Position numbers and translations under genes: made by a program. 42,331 bases of DNA from Acidobacteriota bacterium (GTDB lineage Bacteria > Acidobacteriota > Terriglobia > Acidiferrales > UBA7541): the NCBI GenBank assembly GCA_003154775.1, contig PMES01000028.1, positions 1 through 42,331 of the forward strand. Reading direction: 5' to 3'. This document shows positions 34,880-41,404 of this stretch, piece after piece (position 1 is the stretch's first letter; each line of letters begins with the position of its first letter). The notes below the pieces were generated by a model. That model saw nothing but the letters and a program-made list of their open reading frames with translations, had not been told where the DNA came from and did not search any database.

Positions 34880-36043
34880 TTATCGCGCGAAGCGCGGCGC
34901 AGGTTCGGGAGGAACTTGCACGCTGGGAGCTTCAACGGGGCGGCCACCACGGGCTTGCGAAAGCCTCGGGGCAGCAACCGGCTCTGGCCGGCGAACTGGC
35001 ATGGCCACGTTTTCGCCTTCGCGCGCGAAATTGAGGTGGTCGTCGTCGCGATCCCAATCGATGCAGATCAGGTCGCCGAAATGGACTTGTTCCGTGGCCA
35101 AAAGATTGGCCATGGGGTAGACGACATGGCGTTCGATGGCGCGCTTGAGGTGACGCGCGCCGTAGCGCTGGTCGGTGCCCTCTTGCAGAAGGAAATCGCG
35201 GCCAGGTGCGGTGACGCGGAAAAGGAACTGGCCTTTGGCGGTTTCCAGGACGCGCTGTTGCACCATGGTCAGCTCGATATCCAGAACCTGCTCGAGCTGT
35301 TTGCGCTGGAGCGGGTGGAAAACCACGATCTTGTCCAGGCGGTTCATGAATTCGGGGGAGAACTTACGGCGTGCCGCTTCGACGGCGGTGCGCTCGACTT
35401 TCTGGTCGAGGTTGGTCTTGGGCTTGTCGTCGGACTCGATGAAGCCATAACCGCCGGCCATGAGTTCGGTGATGTCGCCGCCACCAAGGTTGGAGGTCAG
35501 GAAGATGACGGTTTGGGAGAGATCCACGCGGCGGTTGTCGCCAAGAGTGAGGGTGGCCTTGTCCAGCATGCCGAGGAGCAACTGCCAGAGGGCGTCGCTG
35601 GCTTTTTCGATTTCGTCGAAGAGCAGGAAAGAAAGCTTCAGCTTGTCGCTGTGGGAAACCGCCAGGGCTTCCTGGGTAATTAAAGGATGAGTTTCGCGAT
35701 GGCCGAGATAGCCTGGAGGCGAGCCGATGAGTTTCGCGATTTCGTGGGAGTGCTGGAATTCCGCGCAGTCGACTTTGATGATGGCGCGTGGGTCTCCAAA
35801 AAGTATCTCTGCCGCAGCTTCCACTATGCGCGTTTTGCCGGAGCCGGTGGGTCCAAGGAAGAGAAGATTGCCGACAGGGCGACCCGGGGAGTTAAGGCCA
35901 GCGTTGAAGACCTGGAAGAGGTCCACGAGGGCCTGCACGCCTTCCTCCTGGCCAACGATCTTGGCGCGAAGCGATTGATGGAAGTCGCGCGTGTCGTTGC
36001 TGCGGATGCTGGGGTCTAGTTGTTGCCGCACGGCTGCTCTCAT
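34880..36043 (-). CDS. Stand-alone single-AAA+ Clp-type ATPase, copy 2
   Basis: A 387-residue protein equal to the second ATPase domain (D2) of ClpA/B/C, without the N-domain, first ATPase domain or middle domain. Walker A GPTGSGKT is at 64-71, the pore loop GSPPGYLG at 107-114 (Tyr112), Walker B LLFDEIEKA at 140-148, sensor 1 N185 (TSN), the arginine finger R235 (FMNRLD) and sensor 2 R297 (YGARHLKRAI), so all ATPase residues are present. A Y-G-F tripeptide (199-201) sits where ClpC has its ClpP-docking VGF. The tail (about 340-387) is Pro/Arg/Ala-rich and differs from copy 1. AGGTAGAAGG precedes the ATG. The expected role is threading or remodelling substrate protein; substrate and partner unknown. 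Confidence 0.9.
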   Translation of the reverse strand: MRAAVRQQLDPSIRSNDTRDFHQSLRAKIVGQEEGVQALVDLFQVFNAGLNSPGRPVGNLLFLGPTGSGKTRIVEAAAEILFGDPRAIIKVDCAEFQHSHEIAKLIGSPPGYLGHRETHPLITQEALAVSHSDKLKLSFLLFDEIEKASDALWQLLLGMLDKATLTLGDNRRVDLSQTVIFLTSNLGGGDITELMAGGYGFIESDDKPKTNLDQKVERTAVEAARRKFSPEFMNRLDKIVVFHPLQRKQLEQVLDIELTMVQQRVLETAKGQFLFRVTAPGRDFLLQEGTDQRYGARHLKRAIERHVVYPMANLLATEQVHFGDLICIDWDRDDDHLNFAREGENVAMPVRRPEPVAAPRLSQARGGRPVEAPSVQVPPEPAPRFAR

Positions 36044-36231
36044 ACCTTCTACCTCGGCCTAGAACACGCTTTGCTTTAATGTGCCGCCCAACGGAAGCAA
36101 GCGGCACTGCGTAAGCAAACTAGCGCGGTCAGGTCTAAATATGCATGGGGCGGGCCACAATGCGGAAATTGCACCGCTAGCGCAAGAACCTATGCACTCA
36201 ACGACATACGCAAGTTGCTGTCCTGGAAACT

Positions 36232-36248
36232 GTCTCACGGCGTGAGAC
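36232..36248. promoter_or_regulatory. Perfect palindrome GTCTCAC-N3-GTGAGAC
   Basis: Seven-bp arms with a 3-nt centre, about 190 bp upstream of the Clp copy 2 start. The symmetry fits a dimeric repressor, though it could also form an RNA hairpin. It is not the CIRCE heat-shock element. Confidence 0.45.
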
Positions 36249-36290
36249 GATGTTCCATCCAAGCGCAAAGTGAGATTGCTGAAACACAAA

Positions 36291-36310
36291 TTGTCACGAA
36301 TGGATGACAA
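36291..36310. promoter_or_regulatory. Inverted repeat TTGTCA-N8-TGACAA
   Basis: Six-bp arms and an 8-bp centre, about 250 bp upstream of the copy 2 start and 54 bp past the copy 1 stop. Operator-like shape; no T-run to make it a terminator. Confidence 0.4.
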
Positions 36311-36363
36311 AAAGGGGCGCTTGGAGGAAGCGCACCTGCACCAATGGACAGTTGGTTTTTCGC

Positions 36364-37581
36364 TCAGCGGTCTTCTTTTTTGCGGCCTTGCAGCGTTTGC
36401 CGCGCGGCTGCGGGCGTAGCTGCGGGGAGAGCAGGCGGGCTGGAGACATCCCCGGCGACGGCTTCGGCGGGGGCATCTTTGCCAAGGCCGTCTGCGCCAA
36501 GGATGGCGGCAGCCGCTTCCCTTTCCACCGACTCGGTGGAGACGAGGGCGCCTTCCTGCTCGCGAACGAAGGTCAATTCCTTGTGCTGACCGTCCCAATC
36601 GATGCGGACGAGGTCGCCGACGCGCACTTGCTGCGTGGCAAGCAGGTTGGCCAGCGGATAGACGACGTAGCGCTCGATGGCGCGCTTCAGATGGCGCGCG
36701 CCGTAGCGCTGGTCGGTGCCCTCCTGCAAGAGGAAGTCGCGGCCGGAATCGCTGACGCGGAAAAGGAATTTGCCATTGGCTGCGTCCAAGACACGCTGCT
36801 GGACCATGCCAAGCTCGATATCGAGGACCTGCTCGAGTTGCTCGCGCTGGAGCGAGTGGAAAACGACCAGCTTGTCCAAGCGGTTCATGAATTCGGGGGA
36901 GAACTTGCGCTTGGCTGCTTCAACGGCGGTGCGCTCGACCTTCTGGTCAAGGTTGGTCTTGGGCTTGTCGTCAGATTTGATGAAGCCGTAGCCGCCGTCC
37001 ATCAGCTCTGCGATTTCACCTGCGCCCAGGTTGGAGGTCATGAAGATGACGGTCTGCGAGAGGTCCACGCGGCGGTTGTCGCCAAGGGTGAGCGTGGCCT
37101 TGTCCAGCATGCCGAGGAGCAATTGCCAGAGGGCGTCGCTGGCTTTCTCGATTTCGTCGAAGAGCAGGAACGAGAGCTTCAGCTTGTCGCTGTGGTGCGC
37201 CGCCAGCGCTTCCTGGGTAATCAGCGGATGCGTTTCGCGGTGCCCAAGATAGCCTGGGGGCGAGCCGATCAACTTGGCGATTTCGTGGGAGTGCTGGAAT
37301 TCCGCGCAATCGATTTTGATGACGGCGCGCGGGCTGCCAAACAGGATTTCCGCCGCCGCTTCCACGATGCGCGTTTTGCCGGAGCCCGTGGGCCCGAGGA
37401 ACAACAGGTTGCCAACCGGGCGACCCGGGGAATTCAGTCCGGCGGTGAACACCTGGAAGAGCTCGACGAGCGTTTGCACGCCTTCGTCCTGCCCGACGAT
37501 CTTGGAACGCAGCGCCTTCTGAAACTCGACGGTTTCCGCGCTGCGTATATTTGGATTCAGAGAAAGATCGGCTGTCCCCAT
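36364..37581 (-). CDS. Stand-alone single-AAA+ Clp-type ATPase, copy 1
   Basis: A 405-residue paralogue of the gene at 34880-36043, nearly identical in residues about 24-320. Walker A GPTGSGKT 63-70, pore loop GSPPGYLG 106-113, Walker B FDEIEKA (D142, E143), N184, YGF 198-200, R234 and the YGARHLKRAI sensor 2 block are all intact. The tail (from about 330) is Ala/Pro/Glu-rich and unlike copy 2. GGAGG lies 6 nt before the ATG and overlaps the end of the upstream 155-residue gene (9-bp gap), so the two are one operon. Codon use and GC match copy 2, which fits local duplication. Confidence 0.9.
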   Translation of the reverse strand: MGTADLSLNPNIRSAETVEFQKALRSKIVGQDEGVQTLVELFQVFTAGLNSPGRPVGNLLFLGPTGSGKTRIVEAAAEILFGSPRAVIKIDCAEFQHSHEIAKLIGSPPGYLGHRETHPLITQEALAAHHSDKLKLSFLLFDEIEKASDALWQLLLGMLDKATLTLGDNRRVDLSQTVIFMTSNLGAGEIAELMDGGYGFIKSDDKPKTNLDQKVERTAVEAAKRKFSPEFMNRLDKLVVFHSLQREQLEQVLDIELGMVQQRVLDAANGKFLFRVSDSGRDFLLQEGTDQRYGARHLKRAIERYVVYPLANLLATQQVRVGDLVRIDWDGQHKELTFVREQEGALVSTESVEREAAAAILGADGLGKDAPAEAVAGDVSSPPALPAATPAAARQTLQGRKKEDR

Positions 37582-37590
37582 GACCGCCTC

Positions 37591-38058
37591 CTAGCGTCCC
37601 CGGAATCCGGGATGCGCGCTTCCAATGCGACCGCTGGTCCGGTTGAGTCTCTTCAGTTCATCCTTGCGGGCGAACTGATCGAGCTTCACCTGAATGGTGG
37701 ACTGCAGGAGCCGCAACTGCAAAAGCAGCTCCCGCGCCACCGCGGGCGATTCGGAAAGACGAAGTACAGGCGGGAAAAAATCCGCCAGGTCCAGATTGAG
37801 GTTTCGCAGCGAGTGGACGAGTTTCTGAACGGCGGGCGATTGAGGGTCGGACAAATCGATCTGATTATTTAACTGGTCGCGGAGGGTACGCCAGTTGAGT
37901 TCCACGAATGGATGCTTCTTGCTTACTGCGCGAACAATTTCGTCGGTGATGCGGGCGCGATCGCCGAGCCGCGCGAGATGGAGTTGCCGCACTTTTCCAC
38001 CGCGGCGCACGTTGTGCACCAGGTAGTAGGCATTTCCTTTGCGGCGAACGAAAGCCAT
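37591..38058 (-). CDS. Small protein with a transposase-like N-terminus, first gene of the Clp operon
   Basis: A 155-residue protein. The N-terminus MAFVRRKGNAYYLVHNVRRG and RQLHLARLGD resembles the N-terminal segment of IS1634-type transposases (YLVxxVRxGGKVRQxxLAxLG), but nothing of the catalytic domain follows. The rest is helical, with a basic end (about 140-155, RKDELKRLNRTSGRIG). I chose the ATG at 38058 because GAGGT lies 6 nt upstream; an open extension of 71 codons upstream is low-complexity and crosses the promoter. Its tight spacing to the Clp gene suggests an adaptor or regulatory role, which is an inference. Confidence 0.75.
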   Translation of the reverse strand: MAFVRRKGNAYYLVHNVRRGGKVRQLHLARLGDRARITDEIVRAVSKKHPFVELNWRTLRDQLNNQIDLSDPQSPAVQKLVHSLRNLNLDLADFFPPVLRLSESPAVARELLLQLRLLQSTIQVKLDQFARKDELKRLNRTSGRIGSAHPGFRGR

Positions 38059-38132: not shown

Positions 38133-38159
38133 CTGTAGTGTAAGCTAGTTCCACTACAG
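38133..38159. promoter_or_regulatory. Operator-like inverted repeat CTGTAGTG-N11-CACTACAG
   Basis: Perfect 8-bp arms with 11 bp between, covering the -10 box and the presumed transcription start of the Clp operon. The position is typical of a repressor site. Confidence 0.6.
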
Positions 38160-38181
38160 GATGCAAGATAGGATGCGTCAA
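38153..38181 (-). promoter_or_regulatory. Putative promoter of the Clp operon
   Basis: On the minus strand TTGACG (complement of 38176-38181) and TGTAGT (38153-38158) with a 17-bp spacer, 5/6 and 4/6 matches to consensus. The leader to the ATG at 38058 would be about 88 nt. Confidence 0.55.
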
Positions 38182-38410
38182 ATTAGTAATGGTTGCTTGC
38201 CCCGGCGCTGCAGCCATGCTCGCGCAGTTGCCGGTTGTTGCTGCATCCATTTTTTCACTGCATGCCATCATTGTTTCGGTCCTGTGCCGCGGTAGCTTTG
38301 CGCCGAGGCAGGCTGCATTTCATTCAACACTTCCCAGCGGCAATTTTCTCTTGTGAGCCGCGCGCGGCATCCTTACCATAGAGGCCGCTTGAGCCATGGA
38401 GGTTTCCGAG

Positions 38411-38755
38411 ATGTCCTGGGTTCCGGTGTACCGGCTGGTGAAACTAATTCCGCGCGGCCGGGTTATCACGTACGGGTCGCTCGCTAGAGCTTTACGTCTG
38501 CGCCGCGGGGCGAGAGCCGCGGGCAGGGCTATGGCGGCGACCCCTTCTGGTAAAGGCATACCGTGGCATCGCGTGGTGGGCGAACGCGGGAGACTGCTGA
38601 TCCGTGAGCCGTACGCTTCGCTACAGAGAAAATTGCTGGAGAGCGAAGGCGTGACCTTGCGGGAATCGCGCGTGGACATCAATATCTGCCACTGGCTTCC
38701 GCCGCTCGGCAAAAGTTCGACAGCCAAACTCAAAAGCGCTCGCAAAAGCAAATAG
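38411..38755 (+). CDS. atl: Alkyltransferase-like protein (MGMT fold, Trp for Cys)
   Basis: A 114-residue protein with the MGMT C-terminal domain: YRLVKLIPRGRVITYGSLARAL, helix-turn-helix arginine region, then GIPWHRVVGERGRLL. The active-site PCHR of O6-alkylguanine transferases is PWHR here, the hallmark of the alkyltransferase-like (ATL) proteins, which bind O6-alkylguanine but cannot remove the alkyl group and instead pass the lesion to nucleotide excision repair. I chose the ATG at 38411 because GGAGGT lies 7 nt upstream; an ATG five codons earlier is possible. The C-terminus is Lys/Ser-rich. Confidence 0.9.
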   Translation: MSWVPVYRLVKLIPRGRVITYGSLARALRLRRGARAAGRAMAATPSGKGIPWHRVVGERGRLLIREPYASLQRKLLESEGVTLRESRVDINICHWLPPLGKSSTAKLKSARKSK

Positions 38756-38818: not shown

Positions 38819-41404
38819 ATGAAACTTTCCGGACTTTTTCTGCGCTGGGCTCGCTCGAAGAATTCATCCTGGCGGCTGCTGCAAGTTTTCGCGATCACGG
38901 TTCTCTTGCTTGGCGCCGGGACGCAATCGCTTCGGGCGGAGACAGGCCAAGAGGCCTGGTTGCGTTACGCCCGGCTTGATCCCACAGCAAGCGCGAAATA
39001 CTCCTCGGTTCCCCGCCTCATTGTGCGTGCTGGCGATTCTCCCGTTCTGGAGTCGGCCGAGCAGGAATTGACACGCGGGCTTCGTGGTTTGTTGGGCGAA
39101 GAATTTCAAACTGGCAGAACGCTTCGTCATGAACCCGTCATCCTTTTGGGCACGCTGAGCCAAGTCACACAGCTCCTCCCTGATCTTCGCCCTCCGCAAT
39201 CTCTTTCGCCGGATGGCTACTGGCTCACTCAAACAAAAATAAATGGTTCCACCGGCTTCATCATCACCGCGCCGAACGACCGCGGCGTTCTCTACGGCGT
39301 CTTCGCCTTCCTGAGCAAAATCGCCCGCGCGGAAAGTTTGCAATCCCTGAACGAGGTGCAAGTTCCCGTCAACACAGTTCGCATGGTGGATCAATGGGAC
39401 AACCTGGATGGCACCATCGAGCGGGGGTATGCCGGAGCTTTGCTCTTCTTTGAAAATGGCCGTGTACGCGCGAACCTCTCGCGTGCCGGCGAGTACGCCC
39501 GCCTTCTTGCCTCGGTGGGGATAAATGCATGCGCCATCAACAATGTGAACGCCAATCCCCGGCTTCTCGAAAAGGCCTTCCTTCCGCAACTGCGTCGCGT
39601 TGCAGAAGCGTTCCGCCCCTGGGGCGTGCGCCTGGCACTTTCCGTTGACGTCAGCAGTCCAAAAGCCATCGCCGGATTGCCTACCTTTGATCCGCTCGAT
39701 CCGCGCGTGGCCGCGTGGTGGCAGCAAACGGTGGATGCACTCTACGCGGAAATTCCGGACTTTGCCGGATTCGTGGTGAAAGCCGACTCGGAAGGCCGTG
39801 CGGGGCCCGCCAGTTACGGGCGCACTCCCGCCCATGCTGCAAACATGATTGCGCGCGCGCTAAAGCCGCGCGGTGGGTTGCTTTTCTATCGCAGCTTCGT
39901 TTACGACCACCACCTCGACTGGCGCAATCCCAAAAATGATCGTGCCAAGGCGGCCTACGATATTTTTCACCCGCTGGACGGCCAATTCGCGGAAAACGTT
40001 GTGATTCAGATCAAACATGGGCCCATCGATTTTCAGGTGCGCGAACCGGTTTCCCCCCTGCTCGGCGGCCTGGAAAAAACGAATGAAGCCATCGAGCTGC
40101 AAATCACGCAGGAATATACCGGGCAGCAGAGACATCTGTGTTATCTCCTGCCGATGTGGAAGGAAGTGCTCGATTTCGATATGCAGAACGCTGGCAATTC
40201 CACACGCGTGCGCGATTTGGTTTCTGGCAAGACCTACCAGCGCCCCTACGGTGGCTTGGTGGGCGTTGCGAATGTGGGCATGGATACGAACTGGCTGGCG
40301 CATCCGCTCGCGATGGCCAACCTTTATGGCTTCGGCCGCCTGGCGTGGGATCCCACCCTCAGCGCGCAAACCATCACGGAGGAATGGACGCGGCTCACCT
40401 TTGGCAACGACGCAACCACCGTGGACACGATCGATGCCATGCTGCTTTCTTCCTGGAACATCTACGAAAGCTATACGGGGCCTCTCGGGGCAGGTACGCT
40501 CACCGACATTCTCGGAAGTCACTACGGTCCCGGGGCGGAATCCTCCGAACGAAATGGCTGGGGCCAGTGGCACCGCGCCGATCACGCGGGGATTGGCATG
40601 GACCGCACGGTCGCCACCGGGACTGGCTATGTCGCGCAATATTCTCCCGCCGTTGCGAAGCAATATGAGTCCGTGGAAACGACGCCAGACGAACTGCTCT
40701 TGTTTTTCCACCATGTCCCTTACTCCTACAAACTTCACTCCGGCAAAGCCGTCATCCAACATATTTACGATTCACATTATGTGGGTGCCAGCCGCGCCGC
40801 TGCGCTCGTCTCCCAGTGGCAATCGTTGCAAGGCCGCGTGGATCAGCAGCGCTACGAAGACGTGTTGCGGCGCCTCGAGTACCAGGCAGGCCACGCCATC
40901 GTCTGGCGCGACGCCATCTGCAACTGGTTTGCCCGAACCTCTGGCGTGCCGGATGAACGTGGGCGCGTCGGCCATAACCCTGGCCGAGTTGAAGCGGAAA
41001 ACATGGAGCTGCGCGGCTACGTGGCGTTCAATGTCACCCCGTGGGAGGCGGCTTCCGGCGGCAAGGGAGTCGAATGCCCCTCGGAGTCTGAGTCCTGCAC
41101 GGCCACCTTTCATTTCACGGGTGCTCCGGGACGCTACGACATCGACGTCCGTTACTTCGACCAATTGAACGGCATCTCTCGATTCCGGGTGTATCTGGGG
41201 AACCAGCTCATCGCGGAATGGAGCGCCGACGAGCGATTCCCCGCAACAGTTCCCAACGCAGACTCTTCCGCGCGCCATCGCATTCCTGGCATCACCCTGA
41301 ACACAGGCGATGCGCTGCGCATCGAGGGCCGACCCGATGGCCCCGAACACGCCGCCCTCGATTACGTCGAGTTCACCGCGATAGACTCGCCCCCGCAACA
41401 CTGA
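38819..41404 (+). CDS. aguA: Secreted GH67 alpha-glucuronidase with extra C-terminal domain
   Basis: An 861-residue enzyme removing (4-O-methyl-)glucuronic acid from xylan-derived oligosaccharides. A signal peptide (about 1-40, core LLQVFAITVLLLGAG) is followed by the N-terminal domain, the barrel with VDQWDNLDGTIERGYAG and GFVVKADSEGRAGP (E325), then DIFHPLDGQFAENVVIQIKHGPIDFQVREP, where D381 and E409 align with the conserved catalytic carboxylates as I recall them for GH67, and TQEYTGQQRHLCYLLPMWKEVLDF. From about residue 723 (VEAENMELRGYVAFN) it carries a carbohydrate-binding-like domain (CBM6/35 type, about 135 residues) not found in most GH67 enzymes. No xylanase or transporter lies beside it. 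Confidence 0.95.
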   Translation: MKLSGLFLRWARSKNSSWRLLQVFAITVLLLGAGTQSLRAETGQEAWLRYARLDPTASAKYSSVPRLIVRAGDSPVLESAEQELTRGLRGLLGEEFQTGRTLRHEPVILLGTLSQVTQLLPDLRPPQSLSPDGYWLTQTKINGSTGFIITAPNDRGVLYGVFAFLSKIARAESLQSLNEVQVPVNTVRMVDQWDNLDGTIERGYAGALLFFENGRVRANLSRAGEYARLLASVGINACAINNVNANPRLLEKAFLPQLRRVAEAFRPWGVRLALSVDVSSPKAIAGLPTFDPLDPRVAAWWQQTVDALYAEIPDFAGFVVKADSEGRAGPASYGRTPAHAANMIARALKPRGGLLFYRSFVYDHHLDWRNPKNDRAKAAYDIFHPLDGQFAENVVIQIKHGPIDFQVREPVSPLLGGLEKTNEAIELQITQEYTGQQRHLCYLLPMWKEVLDFDMQNAGNSTRVRDLVSGKTYQRPYGGLVGVANVGMDTNWLAHPLAMANLYGFGRLAWDPTLSAQTITEEWTRLTFGNDATTVDTIDAMLLSSWNIYESYTGPLGAGTLTDILGSHYGPGAESSERNGWGQWHRADHAGIGMDRTVATGTGYVAQYSPAVAKQYESVETTPDELLLFFHHVPYSYKLHSGKAVIQHIYDSHYVGASRAAALVSQWQSLQGRVDQQRYEDVLRRLEYQAGHAIVWRDAICNWFARTSGVPDERGRVGHNPGRVEAENMELRGYVAFNVTPWEAASGGKGVECPSESESCTATFHFTGAPGRYDIDVRYFDQLNGISRFRVYLGNQLIAEWSADERFPATVPNADSSARHRIPGITLNTGDALRIEGRPDGPEHAALDYVEFTAIDSPPQH

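Follow-up and report, generated by a model that had tools for sequence, protein, structure and literature searches.

Single-ring Clp ATPase paralogues of Acidobacteriota and a small gene associated with a palindrome in its own promoter

The two ATPases and their family

We analyzed a locus on contig PMES01000028.1 (assembly GCA_003154775.1) of an Acidobacteriota bacterium, whose phylum is common in soils; the whole stretch of 42,331 nucleotides is referred to as the window. At this locus the gene for a 155-residue protein (P0001, the small protein) is followed by two genes for Clp ATPases, copy 1 (clp1, protein P0002) and copy 2 (clp2, protein P0003), with a palindrome upstream of the small gene and another between the two clp genes (Table 1). 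A first-pass annotation, made from the letters alone, had both ATPase genes following the small gene at 9 bp; this holds for copy 1, which starts 9 bp after the end of P0001, and fails for copy 2, which lies 320 bp after copy 1. Related loci were collected by a genome_contigs scan (571 places confirmed), the best 80 of the 571 giving 75 loci, 43 with the small gene and 32 without; whole genomes were surveyed in a phylum sample of 396 Acidobacteriota genomes and in a set of 61 close relatives that includes 36 members of the genus. The gene-order survey proposed at first pass came out in favor of a conserved arrangement: the small gene accompanies the clp pair in 25 of 27 tandem loci, with a gap to copy 1 of 9 bp in 20/25, and the two clp genes lie 227-421 bp apart across the 27. 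Acidobacteria-type labels are borne by 73 of the 75 loci (the other two, labelled Betaproteobacteria and Bacillota, were taken for mislabelled assemblies), and the nearest locus among the best 80 of 571 places, L031, is labelled Candidatus Acidiferrum typicum.

Table 1 Genes and putative control elements of the locus, in window coordinates
Feature	Position	Strand	Remarks
Small protein P0001, 155 residues	37591..38058	-	Proposed autorepressor; N-domain predicted as three-stranded sheet + helix, C-terminal part as two long helices
Clp ATPase copy 1 (clp1, P0002), 405 residues	36364..37581	-	Single ring; GYLGH pore loop, YGF loop, low-confidence tail
Clp ATPase copy 2 (clp2, P0003), 387 residues	34880..36043	-	Single ring
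Palindrome CTGTAGTG-N11-CACTACAG	38133..38159	no strand	Proposed operator; strict core GTAGTG-N11-CACTAC at 38135-38157
Sigma-70-type promoter under the palindrome	38137..38166	-	-35 TTGCAT at 38161-38166 (3/6 here), 18 bp spacer, -10 TACACT at 38137-38142
Terminator-like hairpin 3' of copy 1, GCGCTTCCTCCAAGCGC then CCCTTTTTGT	36310..36333	-	Scan and conservation
17-bp palindrome GTCTCA-N5-TGAGAC	36232..36248	no strand	Proposed activator site for copy 2
Sigma-54-like -24/-12 element GTGGCCCGCCCCATGCA (GG-N10-GC), copy 2	36142..36158	-	Motif match

Each ATPase had been read as a single Clp D2-type module with all catalytic residues, and the profile search bears this out: P0002 and P0003 each match one AAA_2 module and ClpB_D2-small above the Pfam family cut-offs, and the motif residues, which we take to be Walker A/B, pore tyrosine, sensor 1, arginine finger and sensor 2, are present in both and mostly invariant over a 48-row family alignment (pore loop GYLGH in 48/48 rows). 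With these domains and a complete set of ATPase motifs both proteins belong to the Hsp100/Clp (AAA_2) family. Homology to ClpB sets in near residue 18-22, ahead of the AAA_2 match, which begins at 54-55, and at 387-405 residues there is one ring, in contrast to the two AAA+ rings, N-domain and long M-domain of ClpB; the N-domain and D1 ring of ClpC/ClpA are likewise missing, and neither protein groups with ClpX or has its zinc N-domain. The copies are nearly identical over core residues 24-320 (265/297, 89%) and unlike in their tails (8 of 40 aligned residues), as had been noticed at first pass; BLASTP gives 79% identity over 377. The AlphaFold monomer model of P0002 is moderate (mean predicted local distance difference test [pLDDT] 69, predicted template modelling score [pTM] 0.58), with pLDDT <50 in the tail from residue 347 and in the loop at 197-201, as would be expected of flexible parts. 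A PADLOC profile, DolB of the Dodola anti-phage system (which pairs DolB with DolA), gives E 8e-14 over part of the AAA module; as the PADLOC matches span only that part and P0001 matches no PADLOC profile, a defence system seems an unlikely identity.

The loop at 197-201 carries a motif of the form xGF after sensor 1, found in 48/48 family rows (MGF 28, LGF 12, YGF 4, FGF 4). It aligns column for column with the IGF found in the ClpC of the same genome and in E. coli ClpX, and three aligned ClpBs have no such loop; E. coli ClpA stands in this alignment without its last residues and with a gap inside its IGL. The likeness to a ClpC/ClpA-type docking loop is loose, the first residue being M, L, Y or F. 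One ClpP match was found in the genome. Since the xGF aligns with the IGF of ClpC and ClpX, an LGF loop serves to tell ClpP partners from ClpB according to excerpts of PMC10149685, and the genome has a ClpP, we infer that the single-ring ATPases dock on ClpP.

Relatives of the single-ring type (E <= 1e-90) occur in at least 56 of the 396 genomes of the phylum sample, where the four best candidates per genome were scored and counts are therefore lower bounds, and in 47/61 close relatives. The source genome also encodes two ClpB-type genes, one ClpC-type gene and two more AAA_2 genes that we took for ClpX and HslU; P0002 is 34-37% identical to the D2 part of its own double-ring Clps (36-37% for the ClpBs). 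In a midpoint-rooted tree of 67 rows, the phylogeny against ClpA/B/C D2 domains that the first pass had called for, 53 single-ring rows form one clade (98/97) separate from 12 double-ring D2s, with ClpX and HslU outside it; the reference branches are long and the root is a midpoint, which leaves the position beside ClpA/B/C unsure and the clade itself supported at 98/97. Within it the clp1 clade (7 rows, 96/91) and the clp2 clade (9 rows, 95/98) are sisters (89/82), so the duplication predates the sampled species. A clade found in at least 56/396 genomes also argues that the ATPases are not local truncations; truncation of a ClpB-type gene, named at first pass as the finding that would overturn the single-ring reading, is excluded by the separate clade, the 36-37% identity to the genome's own ClpBs and the xGF loop that the aligned ClpBs do not have. 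An origin from phage or plasmid was set aside as well: no relative with >=60% identity was found in 72,556 plasmid and 50,697 phage records, the closest match being ~39% identical.

A deeper single-ring Clp subfamily bears a C-terminal receiver domain, PF00072 (L166:5600-7174, L167:6370-7824, L168:6121-7578, all +), which suggests phosphorylation-controlled unfoldases. No prior description of the single-ring family, the repressor family proposed below or their combination was found in the open-access papers searched, and a few term searches of the open-access literature brought up no account of such a system from Acidobacteria; the parts are of known kinds, namely an Hsp100 ATPase, an autorepressed Clp operon and sigma-54 promoters.

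The small protein and the palindrome in its promoter

P0001 has no family match above cut-off (best Pfam DUF5543, E 0.047, below its cut-off) and no match in NCBIfam, PADLOC or PHROGs; neither Pfam nor NCBIfam links it to CtsR. Its model has a confident N-domain (E2-7, E10-19, E22-32, H39-48; pLDDT about 88-93), the topology of which is presumably that of several sheet-based DNA-binding domains, followed by two long helices of lower confidence. Residues 1-50 are also the best-conserved part (18 invariant columns), with 13 K+R vs. 3 D+E. The VIA-align rows for P0001 (best Z 7.5) span mainly residues 67-148 and mean little. Elsewhere in the phylum four proteins, two longer and two small, weakly resemble the N-part, and one of the longer two is a tetratricopeptide repeat (TPR) protein by Pfam. 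Proteins that start with a P0001-like N-domain (MAYVRRRGN...; weak hidden Markov model [HMM] match) lie in L171, where Pfam calls the protein TPR, and in L172; this N-domain may serve more widely as a module for binding DNA or a partner. The small protein had looked transposase-derived at first pass. We dropped this idea: the 155 residues match no transposase or other family above cut-off, the resemblance is weak and confined to the N-domain, and Pfam calls none of the three resemblers checked a transposase.

Upstream of the small gene stands the palindrome GTAGTGGAA-N5-TTaCACTAC, which overlaps the spacer and the -10 box of a sigma-70-type promoter. Counts of its strict form (GTAGTG-N11-CACTAC) are 40/43 among loci with the small gene and 0/32 among loci without it, 30 of which offer at least 600 bp of upstream sequence; about 0.1 strict sites are expected by chance in the 1.68 Mb of loci, and the source genome has one. 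The pattern is defined by its 12 fixed bases, and conservation was judged by near-universal presence at one place amid varying surroundings: the palindrome does keep one place before the small gene while flank and spacer columns drift. The -10 box reads TACACT in 37/40 sites, and a -35 box with 5-6/6 matches at 16-18 bp accompanies 21/40 sites, vs. 1% of random control positions.

Whole genomes gave the same association. Within the genus the small gene is present in 31/36 genomes and the adjoining site in the same 31. Across the 61 genomes, 33/36 small-positive ones have a strict site next to the gene; in the remaining three the site is a variant, with a single mismatch in one half-site (G037) or with N10 spacing (G045, G060). 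Of the 25 small-negative genomes, 3 hold one strict site with different inner bases. Stray strict sites number seven over the 61 genomes, vs. about 0.28 expected per genome (12 fixed bases, equal base use). The small proteins of G045, G053 and G060 are 42-47% identical to P0001, and the arms GTAGTGG/CCACTAC recur there at N10 or N11.

Among tandem loci the strict pattern is present in 25/25 with the small gene vs. 0/2 without. In these two, G023 and G024, clp1-clp2 and the -10 box are kept and the small gene is absent, as judged by tblastn at 1e-3 and by an HMM search, run without filters, of 945 bases about the start of clp1 in all three forward frames. Inspection by eye places the clp1 start codon where that of the small gene would be and shows TACACTAC retained. 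The left half-site reads GTAGCG in G024, and in G023 both half-sites are intact in a palindrome that is one base shorter (N10) and also has no inner G. Change of the palindrome upon loss of the gene is suggestive of a gene-site link and not proof of it. Three genomes are neutral on this link: G007 has only a clp2-type copy, the contig of G009 ends inside the copy upstream of clp2, and in G005 nothing of the single-ring type passes the cut-off.

Because presence of the small gene coincides with that of a palindrome in its promoter, we read the small protein as a transcriptional regulator that probably binds DNA and represses its own gene; specific binding to its own promoter would mark an autoregulator, and what we observed is the association of gene and palindrome in sequence.

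The second transcription unit and neighboring genes

The three genes had been taken for one operon. Copy 2, by contrast, sits behind a terminator-like hairpin and has promoter-like elements of its own. A scan for terminator-like sites returned six, the hairpin after copy 1 among them, near the shuffle mean of 5.3; the hairpin counts because it is conserved, its tail GCGCC(C)CTTTTTGTC being kept over the alignment of 27 inter-clp regions. Perfect-stem hairpins are present in 15 of these 27 (a script counted 16, of which the one in L038 was excluded as being the GTCTCA palindrome). An Rfam search for an RNA element gave no match.

Between the clp genes the palindrome TCTCA-N5-TGAGA is found in 27 of 28 regions (window included), 20 of them with the strict form GTCTCA-N5-TGAGAC. 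The strict form is unique in the source genome and yields 22 sites in 21/61 genomes, 20 of them between clp genes; the other two, which were not placed beside tandem clp loci (G024:C68:12840-12856 and G005:C81:6585-6601), may mark additional genes under this activator. In 25/27 inter-clp regions a GG-N10-GC element follows, in most cases TTGGCA-N6-ATGC, and lies 88-90 bp beyond the palindrome in the 24 loci with both. The combination resembles a sigma-54 promoter with an upstream activator site, the -12 box reading CATGC and not TTGC; the CATGC form is present in 20/395 control upstreams (clp genes included), the control value of 1.5/28 for the inter-clp scan comes from simple shuffles, and the genome has an rpoN-type gene. 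We infer that clp2 uses sigma-54.

A similar element, TGG[CT]-N7-TTGCW, was found upstream of lone clp genes in 16/19 loci vs. 15/245 control upstreams; the 19 were hand-picked (labels Acidobacteriales, Terriglobia, etc.), with L093, L097 and L100 of the same kind left out, and the 245 controls contain the same lone clp genes. Genes for sigma-54 activators adjoin a lone single-ring clp in L079 (7099-8166, +) and L080 (4591-5643, +). Thus sigma-54 control, as judged by these motifs, appears to recur in two branches of the family, and repressor control to accompany the small gene.

Divergent from the small gene lies an alkyltransferase-like gene (PF01035, window 38396-38755, +) with PWHRV in place of PCHRV, presumably the catalytic motif of this family; DNA like this region is also upstream in related loci. 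A GH67 (glycoside hydrolase family 67) alpha-glucuronidase gene (38819-41404, +) adjoins the locus. In L083, L087, L094, L098 and L104 a lone clp stands beside a divergent gene of one cluster, which in L087, L098 and L104 encodes a DUF4015 putative glycosyl hydrolase by Pfam; we had considered an HtrA protease beside the lone clp of some relatives and dropped it upon the DUF4015 result in these three. By eye, a branched-chain-aminotransferase-like gene lies near the DUF4015-type lone clp loci.

Proposed mechanism, alternatives and comparison with known systems

We consider it reasonably probable that the small gene encodes an autorepressor and that the ATPases are a pair of single-ring, ClpP-dependent unfoldases in two transcription units, giving the logic of CtsR-ClpC from unrelated parts. 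Unit 1 would consist of the small gene and clp1, and unit 2 of clp2 alone. The small protein, probably as a dimer, would sit on the palindrome upstream of its gene, covering spacer and -10 box, and keep its own promoter down in quiet cells; misfolded proteins or another signal would remove it and raise clp1. The ATPases would assemble into hexameric AAA+ unfoldases without an N-domain, whose GYLG pore loops draw substrates in and whose xGF loop docks on the single ClpP of the genome, into which substrates are threaded. For clp2 the switch would be sigma-54 together with an activator bound to GTCTCA-N5-TGAGAC, which would let a second signal raise the same machine with another tail. By analogy with CtsR-ClpC, we hypothesize that the unfoldase, with ClpP, clears the repressor upon protein damage and so closes a feedback loop. 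Mixed clp1/clp2 hexamers are a further hypothesis, plausible because the cores are 89% identical. Possible, though we would not call it probable, is the wider claim of a new Clp class of Acidobacteriota: N-domain-less, single-ring, ClpP-docking unfoldases, the first isoform under a sheet-based repressor family that the unfoldase clears, and a second isoform added by sigma-54 to give mixed hexamers. If true, the ClpP-partner unfoldases would gain a minimal single-ring member, paired with a new kind of stress repressor family, and the pair of isoforms would offer a natural test of why near-identical unfoldase isoforms persist under repressor/sigma-70-type vs. sigma-54-type control; the palindrome is a 27-bp target that is directly testable.

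Several observations weigh against the autorepressor and ClpP-partner reading. The whole model of P0001 is middling (mean pLDDT 77.9, pTM 0.44), and Foldseek against PDB and viral models found no significant fold for it. A strict site is missing upstream of the small gene in three loci, L072, L101 and L105, of which L101 offers only 73 bp there. The best -35 box matches just 3/6 in 15 of 40 sites, the window's own among them, and a generic promoter scan did not list the window's promoter of unit 1. If N10 is allowed, the tandem contrast becomes 25/25 vs. 1/2, and the site of G023 may still bind because N10 spacing is also seen in G045 and G060. For unit 2, the strict GTCTCA palindrome is confined to the genus and reaches just 20/28 inter-clp regions; a loose sigma-54 pattern was found before 7 of 17 other lone or non-tandem copies scanned and is missing before 10, so that sigma-54 control, found in two branches, is not universal in the family. 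Another protein could bind either palindrome. Finally, M, Y or F before GF is not the textbook residue, and docking on ClpP may for that reason be weak or absent.

In an alternative reading the ATPases work without ClpP, as disaggregases or remodellers like Skd3 or ClpB, and the xGF loop has another role. The top sequence and fold matches are indeed ClpB D2, nearly tied with ClpC, and human CLPB (Skd3), with one ClpB-type ATPase ring, is a disaggregase; however, CLPB requires its ankyrin domain for disaggregation (both according to excerpts of PMC9934407), whereas the single-ring ATPases have no N-domain, and GF is invariant in 48/48 rows at the docking position of ClpC and ClpX, which the aligned ClpBs do not share. 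We regard this reading as rather unlikely. The first-pass annotation had pictured a compact remodelling machine in which the small protein selects substrates; the duplicated single-ring ATPase kept with a small gene survives from that picture, and the substrate selector is not supported, since no clear small protein was found in the phylum sample's 55 other genomes with a single-ring ATPase (10 best candidates scored in each) and presence of the small gene coincides instead with that of the palindrome before it. A role as substrate adaptor or co-subunit, with some other regulator on the palindrome, would suit the tight linkage to clp1 seen in the 9-bp gaps, and the long helical C-terminal part of P0001 could, on the model, dock on the ATPase; the small protein could even serve as both adaptor and regulator. 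Yet tandem clp genes occur without the small gene, the other 55 genomes have no clear small protein, and all 32 loci without the gene also have no strict palindrome, which is a single site in the genome, so a pure adaptor seems unlikely to us, more so than a ClpP-independent ATPase. Quite improbable, in our judgment, is ordinary redundancy, i.e., an old housekeeping Clp duplicate without a circuit, its palindromes inherited without function. The genus is one lineage whose loci are not independent, and the seven stray palindromes fit such a view; against it, both paralogues are retained as two sister clades, the palindrome has outlasted drift in its flanks and spacer, and the divergent small genes of G045, G053 and G060 retain its arms.

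The autorepressor and ClpP-partner reading has its closest counterpart in the CtsR-McsA/McsB-ClpC system of Gram-positive bacteria, where the gene of an autorepressor likewise comes first in an operon that also encodes a ClpP-system AAA+ unfoldase; the gene order ctsR-mcsA-clpC is seen in L206. According to excerpts of PMC5506225, CtsR controls its own operon and, once inactivated, is targeted for ClpCP proteolysis, its heat inactivation being intrinsic and not brought about by Clp; in B. subtilis, excerpts of PMC12634643 have ClpX needed for CtsR to leave its operators. The parts differ. CtsR has a winged helix, whereas the N-domain of P0001 is predicted as sheet and helix; the CtsR site is a direct heptad repeat, whereas the palindrome before the small gene is an inverted repeat; and the CtsR-ClpC operon has mcsA/mcsB, neither of which lies beside P0001, whose ATPase has one ring and no N-domain.

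Among the unfoldases, ClpC/ClpA share with the single-ring ATPases the D2 module, a GYxG pore loop and an xGF/IGL docking loop; the latter differ in having no N-domain, D1 or M-domain, in their own clade and in a seven-column insertion after the pore loop. ClpB has the closest D2 sequence and, in the ClpBs aligned, no xGF loop. Human CLPB (Skd3) likewise has one ATPase domain (excerpts of PMC9934407), and its ankyrin repeats were not found by Pfam in P0002 or P0003. ClpX and HslU have a single AAA+ ring in common with them, and the IGF of ClpX stands at the aligned xGF place; in contrast, the best E-value is 2e-5 to a ClpX chain vs. 3e-58 to ClpB, and no zinc N-domain was found. ClpI of Actinomycetota is likewise an extra Clp class recognized by sequence and divided by the LGF motif (excerpts of PMC10149685), and it is double-ringed, whereas the ATPases described here are single-ring.

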